Of a DNA stretch of 62,601 nt, positions 55,508 to 62,601 are shown in pieces (position 1 is the stretch's first letter; the number at the start of each line of letters is the position of its first letter). The DNA lies in contig JAFGFE010000024.1 in assembly GCA_016931225.1 (NCBI GenBank), positions 1 through 62,601 on the forward strand, given 5' to 3'. This DNA comes from Candidatus Zymogenaceae bacterium. GTDB taxonomy: Bacteria; Desulfobacterota; Zymogenia; Zymogenales; Zymogenaceae. The notes beneath the pieces are model-generated. The model did not search any database. It was not told where the DNA came from and saw only the letters and a program-made list of their open reading frames with translations. The position numbers and the translations under genes were made by a program.

Positions 55508-56470
55508 ATGGGCGCTGATGCTACAAAAAAGGGGCAAAAGGGACCCGATATATGCCTCCACGGACGGCTGACCCGACGGGATTTCGTAGCCTGTGGCGCC
55601 GTCCTCTCGGCGGCGACGCTGGCAGGAGGGCTGGTCGCCCTGCCCCGCCGGGCTCACGCCGCCGTACCGTTTCTCTCCACCGCCACCGGGACAAACTATA
55701 AAAACATCGTCATCGACGCGGTGGACGGCCTCGGCGGCATGAAGATCTTCGTCACGTCCGGCGATGTGGTTGTGGTCAAACCGAACATCGGCTGGAACAG
55801 TACGCCTGAGCTGGGCGGCAACACCCACCCTGACGTGGTCAGGACCCTGGTGGAGCTGTGCCTGGACGCCGGCGCGTCCAAGGTAAAGGTCTTCGACCGC
55901 ACCTGCCACGACGCCCGTAAGACCTACGATTCCAGCGGCATACAGGCCGCCGTCGAGGGACTGGGCGACTCCCGGGCGACCATCAGCTTCATCGACGACC
56001 GAAAGTTCGTCAGCATGCCCATCCCCATGGGCACGGCGCTGACCGAGTGGGAATTCTACAAAGACGTCCTCGATGCGGACCGCCTCATCAACGTCCCTGT
56101 GGCCAAGAACCACGGCAGCACCACCCTGACCCTCTCGATGAAAAACCTCATGGGTGTCATCGGGGGAAACCGGGGTCAGATACACTGGAATATCGACCAG
56201 AAGCTGGCGGATATCTCGAGCCTCATCAAACCGAACCTGATCGTGCTCGACGCCACCCGGGTGATGCTCAAGGGCGGCCCCAGCGGCGGCGATATCAAAA
56301 ACGTCTCGGTACAAAATCATGTGGTCGCGGGCACGGACCCGGTGGCCGTTGACTCATACGGCGCCACCCTCTTCGGGATGAAGGGGACGGATATCGGCCA
56401 CATCAGGGCCGCCCATGACATGGGCCTGGGGGAAATCGATCTTGCAAAGATCACCGTAAAGGGCACGTAG
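55508..56470 (+). CDS. Tat-exported DUF362 protein
   Basis: A 320-residue protein with a twin-arginine signal (LTRRDFVACG, R23R24, then a hydrophobic run ending AHA). The DUF362 domain follows: GDVVVVKPNIGWNSTPELGG, THPDVVRTLVELCLDAGASK, INVPVAKNHGSTTLTLSMKN, and VAGTDPVAVDSYGATLFG. The family often accompanies ferredoxin domains; no Cys cluster is seen here, so electrons would come from the polyferredoxin encoded 20 bases downstream. GGGAGGAGG precedes the ATG. Function unproven. Confidence 0.88.
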   Translation: MGADATKKGQKGPDICLHGRLTRRDFVACGAVLSAATLAGGLVALPRRAHAAVPFLSTATGTNYKNIVIDAVDGLGGMKIFVTSGDVVVVKPNIGWNSTPELGGNTHPDVVRTLVELCLDAGASKVKVFDRTCHDARKTYDSSGIQAAVEGLGDSRATISFIDDRKFVSMPIPMGTALTEWEFYKDVLDADRLINVPVAKNHGSTTLTLSMKNLMGVIGGNRGQIHWNIDQKLADISSLIKPNLIVLDATRVMLKGGPSGGDIKNVSVQNHVVAGTDPVAVDSYGATLFGMKGTDIGHIRAAHDMGLGEIDLAKITVKGT

Positions 56471-56490: not shown

Positions 56491-58026
56491 GTGGCGGTCG
56501 GGCGACACACAACATCCATCCCCAGGAGAATCACCCAGAGCGTCATCCTGTGCGCGTTTCTGGTCCTCTTCATCACCACCACCTACCGGGGCGGCACGGA
56601 GATTCACTACCCCATCAACCTCTTCTTTCAGGCGGACCCCCTGGCGGCGGCGGGAACGATGCTCGCCTCCCGGACACTCAACGCCTTCTTCCTCCCTGTG
56701 CTCCTGGTATTGTTGGCGACGTTGCTCTTGGGACGGTTCTTCTGCGGCTGGTTCTGCCCCATGGGGGCGCTGTTGGATACATTCCGCCCGCTCATGAAGC
56801 CGGTGGATGTGAAAAAAGTCCCCTCCCGGAACCTGAAATATTACCTGCTCTTCCTGCTGCTTGTTACGGCGGCCTTTTCGATCAATCTCGTCGGCATATT
56901 CGACCCCATCAGCATCCTCATCCGCTCCCTGACGCTTTCCGTCTATCCGCTTCTTTCGGCTGCGGCCTTCGCCGTCTTCGACCAGCTCTATTACTGGGAC
57001 ATCCCGGGCGTCACCGCCGCGTCAGAGGCGGTCTACGGCGTCCTCCGAGAGACGGTTCTCCCCTTCCGGCAGGGCTTCTTTCTGCTTTCGACGACAAGCC
57101 TCGTACTCTTTGGTGCGATCCTCTTCGCGGAGAAGATCCGCCCCCGCTTCTGGTGCAGGTATCTCTGCCCCCTGGGGGCGCTCTTGTCTCTGTTCGCGGG
57201 GGTGTCGCTTTTGAGGCGACGGCCGACGGGATTGTGCCCCGACTGCGCCGAATGCAATGACGTGTGCGAGACAGGCGCCTTCGACGACGACGGGAATTTT
57301 CTGAAGGGGGAGTGCATCCTGACCATGAGCTGTGTCCGCTCCTGCGAAAAGAAGCGGGCCGCCTATACCGTCGGGTTCCCGCCCAGGGCATCGGCCCCCT
57401 CCCTTGTCCGCCGCCACGTCGTCACCTCCCTCGTCGCGGGGCTGGCCCTCTCACCGCTCCTTTTGATTCACCCGAAGCGGAAGCTGAAGGAAAGCCTCGG
57501 TATAGACGCCGTCATCCGTCCCCCCGGCGCCCGGGAGGAGCCTCTGTTTCTCTCCCGCTGCGTCAAGTGCGGCGAGTGCATGATGGTCTGTCCCACCGGG
57601 GGTCTGCAGCCGGACCTCGTCCGGGGGGGGCTGGAGGGGATGTACTCGCCCATCCTCGTGCCCCGCATCGGCTACTGCGAGTATCACTGCACCCTCTGCG
57701 GCCAGGTCTGTCCCACCGGGGCCATCGAGAAGCTCTCCGTGGCCGAAAAGCTCGAAACCGTCATCGGCATGGCGTATATCGACACCAACCGCTGCCTCCC
57801 GTACGCCCACGGCATCAATTGCATGGTCTGTGAGGAGCACTGCCCCACCGCCGACAAGGCGATAAAATTCAGAGAGCCGATCGGCGAAACCTCCGCAGAC
57901 GGCTCGCAGCTCAAACAGCCCTACGTGATAAACAATTTGTGCGTGGGGTGCGGCATCTGCGAGAACAAGTGCCCGGTGGGGGGATCGGGGGCCATCATCG
58001 TGACGTCGGAAAAGGCGAAATACTAA
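56491..58026 (+). CDS. Membrane polyferredoxin (NapH-like plus NapG-like fusion)
   Basis: A 511-residue protein from a GTG start after a GGAGGAG site. Residues 15-270 are a NapH/CcoG-like membrane part with paired CGWFCPMGAL (C85, C89) and CRYLCPLGAL motifs, then CPDCAECNDVC. The C-terminal half carries ferredoxin clusters CVKCGECMMVCPTGG, CEYHCTLCGQVCPTG, CMVCEEHCPTA and CVGCGICENKCPVGG, together at least four [4Fe-4S] sites. It likely moves electrons from quinol across the membrane to the Tat DUF362 partner. A decayed copy of its last 138 bases lies at 62172-62309. Confidence 0.88.
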   Translation: MAVGRHTTSIPRRITQSVILCAFLVLFITTTYRGGTEIHYPINLFFQADPLAAAGTMLASRTLNAFFLPVLLVLLATLLLGRFFCGWFCPMGALLDTFRPLMKPVDVKKVPSRNLKYYLLFLLLVTAAFSINLVGIFDPISILIRSLTLSVYPLLSAAAFAVFDQLYYWDIPGVTAASEAVYGVLRETVLPFRQGFFLLSTTSLVLFGAILFAEKIRPRFWCRYLCPLGALLSLFAGVSLLRRRPTGLCPDCAECNDVCETGAFDDDGNFLKGECILTMSCVRSCEKKRAAYTVGFPPRASAPSLVRRHVVTSLVAGLALSPLLLIHPKRKLKESLGIDAVIRPPGAREEPLFLSRCVKCGECMMVCPTGGLQPDLVRGGLEGMYSPILVPRIGYCEYHCTLCGQVCPTGAIEKLSVAEKLETVIGMAYIDTNRCLPYAHGINCMVCEEHCPTADKAIKFREPIGETSADGSQLKQPYVINNLCVGCGICENKCPVGGSGAIIVTSEKAKY

Positions 58027-58082
58027 GCCCGGATTATGCGGCGGAATCACCCAAATGAGGTTTCAAAAGGGCGTAACTGTCT

Positions 58083-58345
58083 GGAGTAAAAAAGGGCCGT
58101 TGATCCGTAGAACGGCTGATTCGCTAAAGTAGTCGAGGCTTTCATCCCGGGCAACCTGCCATGGTCGGTATTGACGGGTATCTGTGACCCCAGCTTTTTT
58201 ACTCCGCCGCCGGTACCGGGCCGTGTGTGGACACGGCCGACGGGCTGTGTGAGCTTGACCGACCGTGGTTGAATCGGTGCAAGAACCACGCAGACTGAGG
58301 ATTTTCAGAGTAACCGGCGAGTAAGTAACTCCCTCTTGTGGATGA
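58083..58345 (+). ncRNA. Candidate structured RNA or mobile-element end at the insertion boundary
   Basis: Multi-hairpin sequence just past the polyferredoxin stop. GGAGTAAAAAAG (58083-58094) pairs with CTTTTTTACTCC (58194-58205), enclosing a smaller GCCGTT...AACGGC hairpin. It is followed by GGCCGTGT with ACACGGCC (near 58226) and GTGGTT with AACCAC (near 58266). No reading frame on either strand looks real. The strand is a guess. It could be a non-coding RNA, a MITE-like unit or a degraded intron end. Confidence 0.4.
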
Positions 58346-58414
58346 TGCACACGCCTCAACGGGGCGGATTAAAGCCCGTTCACCCGCCAAAATTCGAGGC
58401 CGGAAGGCACAAAC

Positions 58415-58451
58415 CACGAAAAACGCGGCTCTTGCCGCATAATTCGAGATA
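58415..58451. repeat. 37-bp leader repeat, copy 1 (before AraC gene)
   Basis: Matches 61017-61053 with two mismatches. Its core GCGGC-TCTT-GCCGC is a perfect five-bp hairpin. It ends 60 bases before the AraC start. Confidence 0.75.
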
Positions 58452-58464
58452 AAGATAACTTATT

Positions 58465-58481
58465 TTGTAATCTATTTACAA
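58465..58481. promoter_or_regulatory. Candidate operator before the AraC gene
   Basis: TTGTAA and TTACAA with a five-base spacer, about 30 bases upstream of the AraC-type start. Possible self-binding or other repressor site. Confidence 0.35.
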
Positions 58482-58511
58482 TTTACCGGTCTCATATGAT
58501 ATAACTTCACC

Positions 58512-59327
58512 ATGATTGAGATAAAAAGATACAAACCAACTCATCCAATACTGAGAAACTTGATTGACACTATGTGGATTAACAGCGGGGAACTGCCTGC
58601 CCTCAACCATAAGCTTCTCCCAATTAAAAACATCGACCTGATCATAAATCTCTCTTCTCAACCGGTATTACTGTATGACAGTAACTCGGAAATCAGTCTG
58701 GAGTCCTGCTATTTCACCGGCATCATGGATCATTTCAAGTATAGCTGGGAAAGGCCCGCTGGAAATATTGAACTCATCGGTGTTTCTTTTTTCCCCACCG
58801 GTTTTTATCCATTTTTTGGCATCCCACTGTCAGAATTTAAAAACAATATTATTGATTTGCATGTATTAGATAGGACTCTCTCTGAACAACTTGTCGAAAG
58901 AGTAAAAGAGCATAAAACAGTGTTTGGAAAATTTCATACGTTAGAACACGAACTTCTGAAGCTATTAAACATCAACCTGATCATCGATGAGAAGATGAAT
59001 GCTCTTATTTCAGATTTCACAAAACAAGAAGAGTCTCACATTGAAAGCTTCTGTAATATTCGAGGCATCAATAAACGAAAATTTGAACGATTCGCCAACA
59101 AGATTCTTGGTGTTAATCCGAAAGCATATCTGAGAATCAATCGTTTTAGGAAATCACTATATGCTCTTTTACATACCGAATACAATACTTTGACGGAGCT
59201 GGCATACAATTGCGGCTATTATGATCAGATGCATTTTATCAAGGAGTTTAAACTCTTTACCGGTTCCTCTCCCACCCAATTTTTGGCTGAAAAAAAAGCC
59301 CTGCGACAGATCTGTTTTTTTAGTTAA
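58512..59327 (+). CDS. AraC-family transcriptional regulator
   Basis: A 271-residue regulator. The N-terminal domain (RYKPTHPILRNLIDTMWIN and HKLLPIKNIDLIINLSSQPV) resembles the DUF6597 sensor of AraC proteins. The C-terminal HTH pair is the second part: CNIRGINKRKFERFANKILGVNPKAYLRINRFRKSL, then LTELAYNCGYYDQMHFIKEFKLFTGSSP. AT-richer than the polyferredoxin next door, with many Asn, Ile and Lys. It is the first gene of the inserted segment and likely controls the following reductase genes. No strong ribosome site. Confidence 0.9.
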   Translation: MIEIKRYKPTHPILRNLIDTMWINSGELPALNHKLLPIKNIDLIINLSSQPVLLYDSNSEISLESCYFTGIMDHFKYSWERPAGNIELIGVSFFPTGFYPFFGIPLSEFKNNIIDLHVLDRTLSEQLVERVKEHKTVFGKFHTLEHELLKLLNINLIIDEKMNALISDFTKQEESHIESFCNIRGINKRKFERFANKILGVNPKAYLRINRFRKSLYALLHTEYNTLTELAYNCGYYDQMHFIKEFKLFTGSSPTQFLAEKKALRQICFFS

Positions 59328-59432
59328 ATGTCGCATTTTTACTATCAACCATCCCTGTCTCACGCTACGTTATCTAAAATCGGCAAAAGCTTTTTTGCTG
59401 GTGGGATACTGTTATTAAAAAGGAGACGATGG

Positions 59433-60344
59433 ATGGAGATATCAAAATCGACACGCAATGGGATGGGCATGCCTCTCGTGGGATTCGGCACCTATCAGCT
59501 ATCAATCGACCAGGCCGAATTCTGTGTACATGAGGCGCTGAAAGCCGGATTTAAACATATCGATTCGGCCGAGGGCTACAATAATGAAGAGGGAACCGGT
59601 AGAGGGATAAAAGCTGCCGGAGTTTCAAGGGATGATATCTTTGTAACTACCAAGCTTTTTCCCGGATATACACAGTGGGGGGCTCCCGAAAAAACCTACG
59701 AACAGACCATTGAAACGCTGAAAAATCAGCTCAAACAGCTCCAGCTTGACTATGTTGATCTTTACCTGATACATGCCCCACTATCTGAACTGAGACTGGA
59801 ACAGTGGAGCGCTTTGGTAGAGCTGAAAAAAACAGGGCTGACCAGGCATATTGGAGTGGCGAATTACGATGAAGAGAGAATTAAAGAGATTTTGGATGCA
59901 GGCCTGACGAAACCTGAGGCAAACCAGGTTGAATTTCATCCAATGTGTGCCCAGGTTGATTTGACCAGGTACATGAAGGAGAATTCAATCGAACCGATTG
60001 CATACAGCCTGCTTGCTCCCCTTTCAACCTGGCGGGCTGAAGAAGGACAGGGTGGAGAAGTTCTTGCCGAGATAAAAGAAGAATGCCAGTTGGTCACCCA
60101 TGAAATTGCGACAAAACTGAAGGTGACAGACGCCAAACTGCTGTTGAGGTGGGGATTGCAGCACGGCTATTGTGTATTAACGAAAAGCAGTAAACCAGAG
60201 CGTATCCGGGAAAATCTAAATCTGTTTGATTTTGAAATTCCTGATACCGACATGGAGCGTTTGAATCGGCTCAATCGGAATCAAGCATTCGCTTGGGCGG
60301 CTAATGGTCTTAATCCGATGGAAGTCGCACCCCCCCTCAAGTAA
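59433..60344 (+). CDS. Aldo/keto reductase
   Basis: A 303-residue NADPH-dependent reductase, AKR barrel. Tetrad: D44 and Y49 (HIDSAEGYNN), K74 (VTTKLFPG), H114 (LIHAP). NADPH segment TKSSKPERIRENL near the end. GFGTYQL at the N-terminus. Start ATG at 59433 with AAGGAGA before it. It follows the AraC gene by 105 bases, so the two may be co-regulated. Substrate unknown. Confidence 0.92.
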   Translation: MEISKSTRNGMGMPLVGFGTYQLSIDQAEFCVHEALKAGFKHIDSAEGYNNEEGTGRGIKAAGVSRDDIFVTTKLFPGYTQWGAPEKTYEQTIETLKNQLKQLQLDYVDLYLIHAPLSELRLEQWSALVELKKTGLTRHIGVANYDEERIKEILDAGLTKPEANQVEFHPMCAQVDLTRYMKENSIEPIAYSLLAPLSTWRAEEGQGGEVLAEIKEECQLVTHEIATKLKVTDAKLLLRWGLQHGYCVLTKSSKPERIRENLNLFDFEIPDTDMERLNRLNRNQAFAWAANGLNPMEVAPPLK

Positions 60345-60547
60345 ATTCCAATAATCACCATACAAAGAGGAATTCTCACTGTGAGGGATTCCTCTCTGTA
60401 CGGTATATAAAGGGACTTCTGTCCCAATACGGAGGATTTGATGAAATAGCTGGTCGTACTGATACCGGTTTTGCTCCGTCGTACATTACTCTTCTCTGAG
60501 TAACTTTCCAAAAAGATATATCTCGTATCAAGCGAAAGGAGGCCATT

Positions 60548-60736
60548 ATGCCGACCATAACCATCGCACTGAACAAAACCAGCGAAGAAAAAAAGAAGCA
60601 GCTTGTAGAAACCCTTTCAAAAGAAGCCGCTGAAATAACTGAAATACCCCTTGAACACTTTTTAGTCTATGTTCAGGAACATCCCAATGAAAATATCGGT
60701 GTTGGAGGCAAGACACTCAAAGAAATCTTGGGTTGA
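60548..60736 (+). CDS. 4-oxalocrotonate tautomerase-family protein
   Basis: A 62-residue tautomerase subunit with Pro at position 2 (catalytic Pro1 after Met removal): MPTITIALNKTSEEKKKQL, then EAAEITEIPLEHFLVYVQEH, and a C-terminal GGKTLKEILG. Members work as hexamers on enol/keto forms. It has a very good ribosome site (AAAGGAGG). The Arg usually seen at position 39 is not visible, so activity may differ. Confidence 0.9.
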   Translation: MPTITIALNKTSEEKKKQLVETLSKEAAEITEIPLEHFLVYVQEHPNENIGVGGKTLKEILG

Positions 60737-61016
60737 AAGGTCAATTTCCGCAGTCTGCGGCCGGAATTCGGCGATGGCCGGATCGGCGGTCGGCAGCTCG
60801 TCGTGGTCGTGCCCGCTCTTCCGCCGTTGGGAATCGTCGGTCGATGCGGACGCACCCTCGCCTCGGCGGGGCGATTCGGCTTGAAATCCTTTGGGTCAAA
60901 TAGACAATAGAATGATTTTCAAAAATGTTTTATGCAAACAGGAACAAATAACTCCGCATTGTATGCGGATACATCCCATTATTTGCCAGTCAAAAAAAGG
61001 ACAGCTTTCAGTGAAA
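60737..61016. other. Intergenic region with a GC-rich patch
   Basis: Between the tautomerase and second leader repeat. Bases about 60745-60880 are much more GC-rich than either side and keep an open frame in one phase, but its product matches nothing I know. It may be a remnant of another gene. A small hairpin CCGCAT-TGT-ATGCGG lies near 60954. Confidence 0.45.
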
Positions 61017-61053
61017 CACGAAAATCGCGGCTCTTGCCGCATAATTAGAGATA
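61017..61053. repeat. 37-bp leader repeat, copy 2 (before Fe-S aldo/keto reductase)
   Basis: Second copy of the element at 58415-58451, with the same GCGGC-TCTT-GCCGC hairpin, ending 46 bases before the reductase start codon. Confidence 0.75.
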
Positions 61054-61099
61054 TGGTATTCTTGTTTCAATATAAAAAACGTCGGCCAGGAGCAGAAGC

Positions 61100-62125
61100 A
61101 TGAAAAAAAGTCGTTTAGGCAAGACCGGGCTCATGGTTTCGGAACTCGGTTTCGGCGGGATCCCCATTATGCAGTTGGGAGTAAACGATGCCGCTGAAAT
61201 GGTCCGGTATTGTTTCGATCGCGGCGTCACCTTTTTCGATACGGCAAACATGTATATGGACAGCGAGGGAAAAATCGGGCAGGCATTGGAAGGCGTGCGC
61301 GACCAGGTAATCATCGCCACCAAGACGCTGGAAAGATCCAAGGAAAAGGCGGCCGAACATATCGCCAACAGCCTCAAGCAGCTTCGCACCGATTACATAG
61401 ACCTTTTACAATTTCATAACCTGTCCGAGGAATCTGATCTGGAAACTGTGCTGGCCCCCGGCGGCGCCATGGAGGCGGCGACGGTGGCAAAAAGTAAGGG
61501 CCAGATCCGGCATATCGGGTTCAGCGCCCATAATAAGGACACGGCTCTCAAGGTCGTTCAAACCGGACTGTTTGAGACTGTTCAGTTCCCCTTCAACTTT
61601 ATAGAAACCCAGGCCCTTGAAGCCTTGCATCCGGCGGCTCTGGAAAAAGACATGGGCATTATAGCCATGAAACCCTTGGGCGGCGGCATGCTCGAACGGG
61701 CCGACCTGTGTTTTAAATTTCTCCAGCAACACCCACACGTGATACCCATACCCGGAGTATCCAATAAGGAAGAATTCGATCAGATCATGGCCCTGTACGA
61801 AACGCCTCAACCGCTGACCGACCGGGACAGACAGGACATGGAACGCATACGTGAACAACTGGGAGATTCATTCTGCCGGCGTTGCGGGTATTGTCTACCC
61901 TGTCCGCACGGGGTGATGATCAGGGAGGCCCAGATGTTTCCGGCCGTTATGAAACGCATGACGCCCCGGCAGACCGTGGCTTTTTTGAAATACACGATTG
62001 CCACGGTGGATGAATGCATCGAATGCGGTGAATGCGAAGAGAAGTGCCCGTATAATTTACCCATCATTGAGATGCTCAAAGTGCATGTAGAGGGCTTCCG
62101 GAAACTCGAGGCCTCGCTGGGTTGA
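61100..62125 (+). CDS. Aldo/keto reductase with C-terminal 4Fe-4S domain
   Basis: A 341-residue protein. Residues 1-270: AKR barrel with D47 and Y52 (FFDTANMYMDSEG), K75 (IATKTLE) and H106 (LLQFHNLS). Residues about 275-335: a ferredoxin-like end with CRRCGYCLPCPHGV and CIECGECEEKCPYNLP, giving up to two [4Fe-4S] clusters. This fusion occurs widely in anaerobes and may couple to ferredoxin instead of NADPH alone. AGGAGCAGAAGC precedes the ATG. Base composition is closer to the host than the AraC gene. Confidence 0.92.
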   Translation: MKKSRLGKTGLMVSELGFGGIPIMQLGVNDAAEMVRYCFDRGVTFFDTANMYMDSEGKIGQALEGVRDQVIIATKTLERSKEKAAEHIANSLKQLRTDYIDLLQFHNLSEESDLETVLAPGGAMEAATVAKSKGQIRHIGFSAHNKDTALKVVQTGLFETVQFPFNFIETQALEALHPAALEKDMGIIAMKPLGGGMLERADLCFKFLQQHPHVIPIPGVSNKEEFDQIMALYETPQPLTDRDRQDMERIREQLGDSFCRRCGYCLPCPHGVMIREAQMFPAVMKRMTPRQTVAFLKYTIATVDECIECGECEEKCPYNLPIIEMLKVHVEGFRKLEASLG

Positions 62126-62171
62126 AATAAATATCGATAAGTCGATTAAATCCAGGGAACCAATGGAGAAG

Positions 62172-62309
62172 ACATCCGCCGACGGCTCGCAGATCAAACA
62201 GCCTTAAGTAATAAACAGTCTGTGCGTGGGGTGCGGCATCTGCGAGAACAAGTACCCGGTGGGGGGGTCGGAGGCCATCATCGTCACGTCGGAAAAGGCG
62301 AAATACTAA
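62172..62309 (+). pseudogene. Decayed copy of the polyferredoxin gene 3' end
   Basis: Corresponds to 57889-58026 at roughly 90% identity by eye. In the matching frame it has an in-frame TAA (CCT TAA GTA in place of CCC TAC GTG) and a Cys to Tyr change in the last cluster motif (ENKCPVGG becomes ENKYPVGG), and it lacks everything upstream. The stop codon TAA of the original (after AAATAC) is kept. It marks the right edge of the inserted segment. Confidence 0.9.
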
Positions 62310-62326
62310 GAAAGCTAAAATAAAAT

Positions 62327-62476
62327 CTAATTGAATACTGCAAAATTATCATGATTCTCTACAACCCAATTATTGATTGCATGGTACAGTTTAGTAGAAA
62401 AAAAATAGTTTGAATCATAAGCTAGAAATAGTGCTGCTTTTAAATCATTCTTGGTTTTTTTCCCGTGTATACTCAT
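62327..62476 (-). CDS. Small hypothetical protein at the right end
   Basis: A 49-residue AT-rich reading frame (MSIHGKKTKN start, ending in NFAVFN), with the frame open further upstream to 62569 inside the terminal repeat. It could be the C-terminal piece of a longer gene interrupted by the repeat. AT-rich like the DUF4238 gene at the other end. Function unknown; may be chance. Confidence 0.3.
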   Translation of the reverse strand: MSIHGKKTKNDLKAALFLAYDSNYFFSTKLYHAINNWVVENHDNFAVFN

Positions 62477-62520
62477 TCCTAATCTATTTATATTGTATAT
62501 GTAAGCCGTTATAGATAATA

Positions 62521-62601
62521 TGCGGTAGTCACGAGTTGTGTTGACAGTTTGCCTTCCTGCAAGACGGTTCTACTATACTACGCTACGCTTTCCTCGGCTA
62601 C
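62521..62601. repeat. Right terminal inverted repeat, 81 bp
   Basis: Exact reverse complement of bases 4-84. The window stops inside or at the end of it. Confidence 0.9.

Follow-up and report, generated by a model that had tools for sequence, protein, structure and literature searches.

Introduction

In E. coli, partly degraded plasmid circles can enter lacZ by a single crossover, which leaves a duplicate of 109–950 bp of the gene end (PMC3240628), and inter-sister integration during transformation is also known to make duplications (PMC3784515). Homology-facilitated illegitimate recombination has been proposed for the displaced ends of T6SS effector genes (PMC5361080); the classical outcome of this process is in most cases a deletion rather than a duplication (PMC3240628). 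The repeats left by tyrosine integrases are 8–60 bp long (PMC5704250), and in the ssrA islands of Dehalococcoides the repeat is 20 bp and the sequence just upstream of it aligns poorly with ssrA (PMC3146451). Here we describe a segment of foreign genes that lies between a polyferredoxin gene and a second, decayed copy of the end of that gene. On balance we favour its reading as a composite scar of horizontal acquisition by general, RecA-type recombination over that of a self-contained mobile element.

Results and Discussion

The Polyferredoxin Gene End and Its Copy

The window, i.e., the whole stretch of DNA analysed (62,601 nt), is the entire contig C24 of a 3.73 Mb genome that is 99% complete and assembled in 46 contigs. 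The closest relatives compared belong to other genera of the family, and comparisons were made mainly with two confamilial genomes, G001 and G002. The features of the gene end and its surroundings are as follows.

55508–56470: DUF362 gene upstream of the polyferredoxin gene, in the same order in the two confamilial genomes
56491–58026, plus strand: intact polyferredoxin gene (NapH/NapG-like, 511 aa)
57852–58027, plus strand: direct repeat copy 1, the native 3' end of the polyferredoxin gene
57938–58027, plus strand: stretch of copy 1 with a near-identical counterpart in copy 2 (57938–58026: 4 of 89 bp differ)
62135–62310, plus strand: direct repeat copy 2, a decayed mosaic polyferredoxin end (62135–62220 foreign-like, 62221–62310 native-like)
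62311–62601, no strand: AT-rich DNA (33% GC) from copy 2 to the contig end

The 3' end of the polyferredoxin gene recurs 4283 bp downstream as a direct repeat of 176 bp (57852–58027 and 62135–62310), with an identity between the copies of 86% in the repeat search and 88% by blastn (E 2.5e-56). A blastn search of the genome itself found this sequence at these two places only. The polyferredoxin ORF is intact, and the insert begins behind its stop codon, directly after TAAG. Copy 2, which translates as DKSIKSREPMEKTSADGSQIKQP*VINSLCVGCGICENKYPVGGSEAIIVTSEKAKY*, carries an in-frame TAA and a Cys->Tyr change by which a cluster cysteine of the ferredoxin motif is lost. The first-pass annotation of this DNA had described a direct repeat around the segment and had taken the second gene end for a decayed duplicate; the repeat is real and slightly longer than given there, and the lesions in copy 2 agree with decay. 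Contig C24 terminates at 62601, 291 bp beyond copy 2; a minus-strand reading frame of 49 aa, with no family match, is possible in this last stretch (62311–62601).

A segment at a contig end with a differing composition could come from an error of assembly or binning, in which the contig end of another organism was joined to the polyferredoxin gene. This is extremely improbable, as the two copies differ by 12% and hence do not represent an assembly collapse, no repeat able to join contigs is present at the left junction (58028), and one of the inserted units, described below, occurs within the family (G001, G002).

Content of the Inserted Segment

Between the outer copies lie 4107 bp (58028–62134), with the following features.

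58028–58364, no strand: non-coding stretch with 56% GC at the left junction of the insert, with no family or relative match
58512–59327, plus strand: AraC-family regulator with DUF6597, 38% GC
59328–60344, plus strand: aldo/keto reductase, DkgA-like; its real start may be 59433
60548–60736, plus strand: 4-oxalocrotonate tautomerase of the DmpI type (NF041920, above cut-off)
60737–61010, no strand: patch with 52% GC and no gene family match
61100–62125, plus strand: aldo/keto reductase with a C-terminal ferredoxin domain

The four genes thus comprise an AraC/DUF6597 regulator, a DkgA-like aldo/keto reductase, a DmpI tautomerase and an aldo/keto reductase with two [4Fe-4S] clusters (the Fe-S reductase). 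Their GC content is 38–53% versus 62% in the polyferredoxin gene, but it is uneven along the segment and beyond (58028–58364, 56%; regulator, 38%; last reductase, 53%; after copy 2, 33%). Two further statements of the first-pass annotation are borne out: that a regulator, two reductases and a tautomerase lie in mostly AT-richer DNA, with the unevenness just given, and that there is no integrase. Neither the annotated ORFs nor the tested small ORFs, a selection of which was scanned with Pfam, yielded an integrase or a transposase. Insertion of a transposon or IS element is not supported, as no transposase was present among the genes or tested small ORFs and the flanking repeats are direct and 176 and 40 bp long.

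Across 297 phylum genomes the regulator (58512–59327) had no relative at E<=1e-30; it matched no named NCBIfam regulator above cut-off, and the AT-rich middle of the segment (58452–61010) gave no DNA match among 99 relatives. The non-coding stretch at 58028–58364 returned no Rfam family at E<=1 (one chance-level match at E<=10), no match in the plasmid collection, the phage collection or the relatives, and no Pfam domain in its ORFs. It contains a long-range inverted repeat, GGAGTAAAAAAG...CTTTTTTACTCC. A structured RNA or intron in 58028–58511 was rejected because the predicted fold is barely better than that of shuffled sequences (z -2.45), and a group II intron or other structured mobile RNA because the non-coding part had no Rfam match at E<=1. 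When viral contigs were searched with motif patterns of 58028–58511, one pattern gave two chance matches and the other gave none.

In E. coli, YqhC and YqhD-DkgA form an aldehyde response, in which an AraC-type regulator accompanies the DkgA reductase. By analogy, the cargo resembles this aldehyde-responsive arrangement, with an AraC-type regulator followed by a DkgA-like reductase, but the regulator here carries DUF6597, unlike the E. coli system.

Mosaic Ancestry of the Second Gene End

The second gene end is a mosaic. Its first part (57852–57937 in copy 1 coordinates) has 20 differences from copy 1 in 86 sites, 13 of them among the 29 third codon positions, and its second part (57938–58026) has 4 in 89 sites, 2 of them among the 30 third positions. 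The contrast between the halves is significant by Fisher's test (p 0.0003 for all sites, 0.0009 for third positions) and by a breakpoint-scan permutation (p 0.005), in a comparison that rests on 175 bp. The split at 57937/57938 was set by eye and the exact breakpoint is uncertain; an unguided scan placed the optimum slightly upstream, at about 57892–57900.

Within the 5' half, 13 of 29 third positions are changed versus only 7 of 57 other positions, so this half gathered its changes while under coding constraint, not as a dead copy. Its third-position identity to copy 1 (0.55) is close to the value for the other genus, G001 (0.52), and the first half of copy 2 thus once belonged to a functional gene, at roughly the distance of another genus in this family. 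The near-identity of the 3' half was compared with 288 homologue pairs whose 5' parts have third-position identities of 0.48–0.62. In these pairs the 3'-part third-position identity averages 0.50, and none of the 288 reaches the 0.91 of copies 1 and 2; constraint is no explanation for the near-identical 3' half. The C-terminal tail EKAKY is the same in every base of both copies, and this tail differs in G001 and G002. The second half of copy 2 is thus the native end, copied and since drifted. The divergence of the copies had earlier been ascribed to an old event or to a foreign homologous end, and both parts of this suggestion find a place in copy 2, with its foreign-like first half and decayed native second half.

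A Composite Interior

The interior of the segment is composite. The features that bear on this are:

61011–62131, plus strand: single-gene unit (leader and Fe-S reductase), common to relatives at other loci (G002 contig C90, 92%; G001 contig C57, 86%)
58365–58411, plus strand: 5' half of the Fe-S reductase leader, now detached; continuous with the reductase leader in G002
58412–58451, plus strand: inner direct repeat copy A, with the leader hairpin GCGGC-TCTT-GCCGC
61014–61053, plus strand: inner direct repeat copy B, in the reductase leader

In both G001 and G002 the Fe-S reductase unit stands alone, between different genes each time. In neither genome does it lie beside a polyferredoxin gene or a duplicate of one, and no convincing direct repeats were found around it. 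The reductase has a third-position identity of 0.85 with G002 and 0.76 with G001. The corresponding values for DUF362, polyferredoxin, amylase and aminotransferase, all four inherited by common descent, are only 0.40–0.49 with the same genomes. The unit has therefore moved horizontally, and it exemplifies the passage of a single reductase unit between genera of the same family. The segment is a composite and not one element. The first-pass reading of a single integrated element with att-like ends is not supported, as the Fe-S reductase unit is present at other loci in G001 and G002 without the polyferredoxin duplicate, an outcome that the annotation itself had listed as refuting its reading.

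The leader of the reductase unit records a further insertion. In G002 it is unbroken from the equivalent of 58365, while in the window it stops at 58451 and picks up again at 61011, and 40 bp occur on either side of the gap; a 2.6-kb block was therefore inserted into the leader later. This inner repeat (58412–58451 and 61014–61053), absent from the first-pass annotation, is 93% identical over its 40 bp, with private changes in each copy. The block, consisting of the regulator, the DkgA-like reductase and the tautomerase, is a nested insertion with its own 40-bp repeat. The leader hairpin GCGGC-TCTT-GCCGC, with TTGCCG, 17 bp and TATTCT downstream, resembles a promoter of the Fe-S reductase, and the inserted regulator now lies behind this promoter-like sequence (58412–58451). 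Matches to the leader in four other genomes (G163, G108, G183 and G067) were weak and were judged to be due to chance.

Inserts flanked by repeats of their target are a feature of patch-type break repair, and here the outer and the inner insert are both flanked by target repeats, of 176 and 40 bp. A local duplication of the gene end, by a staggered break or template slippage, could have captured foreign DNA between the copies with no foreign polyferredoxin homologue taking part. We regard this as decidedly unlikely, as the 5' half of copy 2 shows divergence of the coding type (13 of 29 third positions, 7 of 57 others) and no Ku gene was found in the 99% complete genome. The lack of a Ku gene in this genome likewise makes non-homologous end joining by Ku unlikely.

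Site-specific integration is another alternative. A decayed integrative element (a CIME-like remnant) would have inserted site-specifically in the polyferredoxin 3' end and lost its integrase, and the two gene ends would represent attL and attR. The position precisely at the 3' end of a gene that stays intact, the direct repeat and the AT-rich foreign cargo are all consistent with this; a CIME needs no integrase (PMC5704250), and the Dehalococcoides islands at the ssrA 3' end offer a comparable case (PMC3146451). The repeat is less easily reconciled with it. The near-identical stretch of about 90 bp exceeds the 8–60 bp of tyrosine integrase repeats (PMC5704250), and homology runs 86 bp further upstream, in frame and with coding-type divergence, where an attachment site predicts none. 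The content is a patchwork in which the Fe-S reductase unit moved independently, no integration or mobility gene was found, and the phage and plasmid collections gave no match. At the polyferredoxin end of G001 and G002 there is no related element with an integrase. An insertion that leaves its target gene functional at a specific gene end is as in CIMEs, but a short att core (8–60 bp) without further target-gene homology was not found; the segment is for this reason not classed with them, and an origin of this kind is unlikely.

Synteny and a Proposed Recombination Model

In G001 and G002 the gene order is DUF362, polyferredoxin, amylase, aminotransferase and phosphoglycerate dehydrogenase. 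The order from polyferredoxin through amylase and aminotransferase to serA is kept in two genera (L109 6082–9090) and is split between contigs in the genome studied here, which carries DUF362 and polyferredoxin on C24 and the amylase and aminotransferase on C25 (L137 311–3263), behind a different gene. The ancestral neighbourhood has therefore been broken exactly at the polyferredoxin end. At the end of C25 (L137:7996–10186), in AT-rich DNA directly 3' of a trehalose-synthesis-like gene cluster, an AriA-like AAA ATPase precedes an AriB-like protein; the two probably form a PARIS-type anti-phage pair.

Under the favoured reading of capture by general recombination, a donor fragment from a related bacterium would have carried the Fe-S reductase unit and part of the donor's own polyferredoxin gene. 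Pairing of this fragment with the native gene may have taken place in the ferredoxin motif near 57938, which is highly conserved, while the far end of the donor DNA was attached immediately after the native stop codon. A crossover upstream of the junction would duplicate the last ~90 bp of the native gene. The native gene would thereby stay intact on the left, and the right side would receive a foreign/native mosaic end that decayed afterwards. In a further event, the block of AraC regulator, reductase and tautomerase would have entered the leader of the reductase unit, leaving the 40-bp repeat. We infer both this order of events and the involvement of RecA; the donor molecule may have been linear or circular.

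Capture by homologous recombination is expected to duplicate part of the target gene and to leave mosaic ancestry, and the locus shows both. Several points count against this account. The mosaic is read from 175 bp, both halves of the copy should be diverged after a simple single crossover with a circle unless gene conversion followed, classical homology-facilitated illegitimate recombination mostly deletes rather than duplicates (PMC3240628), and the right flank (62311–62601), with 33% GC and then the contig end, is not demonstrably native. Also, no strain or species without the segment was found, nor a donor with the Fe-S reductase beside a polyferredoxin end.

A wider form of integrase-free gene stacking can be imagined, with gene ends and the reductase unit's hairpin leader as recurrent landing sites, where single-gene units move between relatives with their leader and each arrival leaves behind a long repeat of its target (176 bp for the outer, 40 bp for the inner insert). 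This we consider very improbable.

Comparison with Known Systems

The event is of a known kind, of which the locus is a nice example. The sequence evidence suggests that a foreign homologous gene end can anchor the acquisition of unrelated genes. It also indicates that a gene-end duplicate beside an island is by itself no proof of an integrase, and that a mosaic at third codon positions separates the two cases.

As in the single crossovers into lacZ (PMC3240628), foreign DNA is bordered by one intact and one partial copy of a gene end, but here the foreign end is a diverged homologue that differs in its first half only. Since only the first half of copy 2 is diverged, a conversion or inter-sister event, not observed experimentally, must be added. 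The locus shares with the T6SS effector case (PMC5361080) one homologous anchor, one illegitimate end and an orphaned old gene end, and departs from it in that about 90 bp were duplicated and not deleted, and in that the target is a metabolic gene and not an effector. Like the Dehalococcoides ssrA islands and CIMEs, it has an insertion at the end of a gene that stays whole, a direct repeat at the far border and foreign cargo; unlike them, it has no detected integrase, a long coding-homologous mosaic repeat in place of a short core, and a composite interior.
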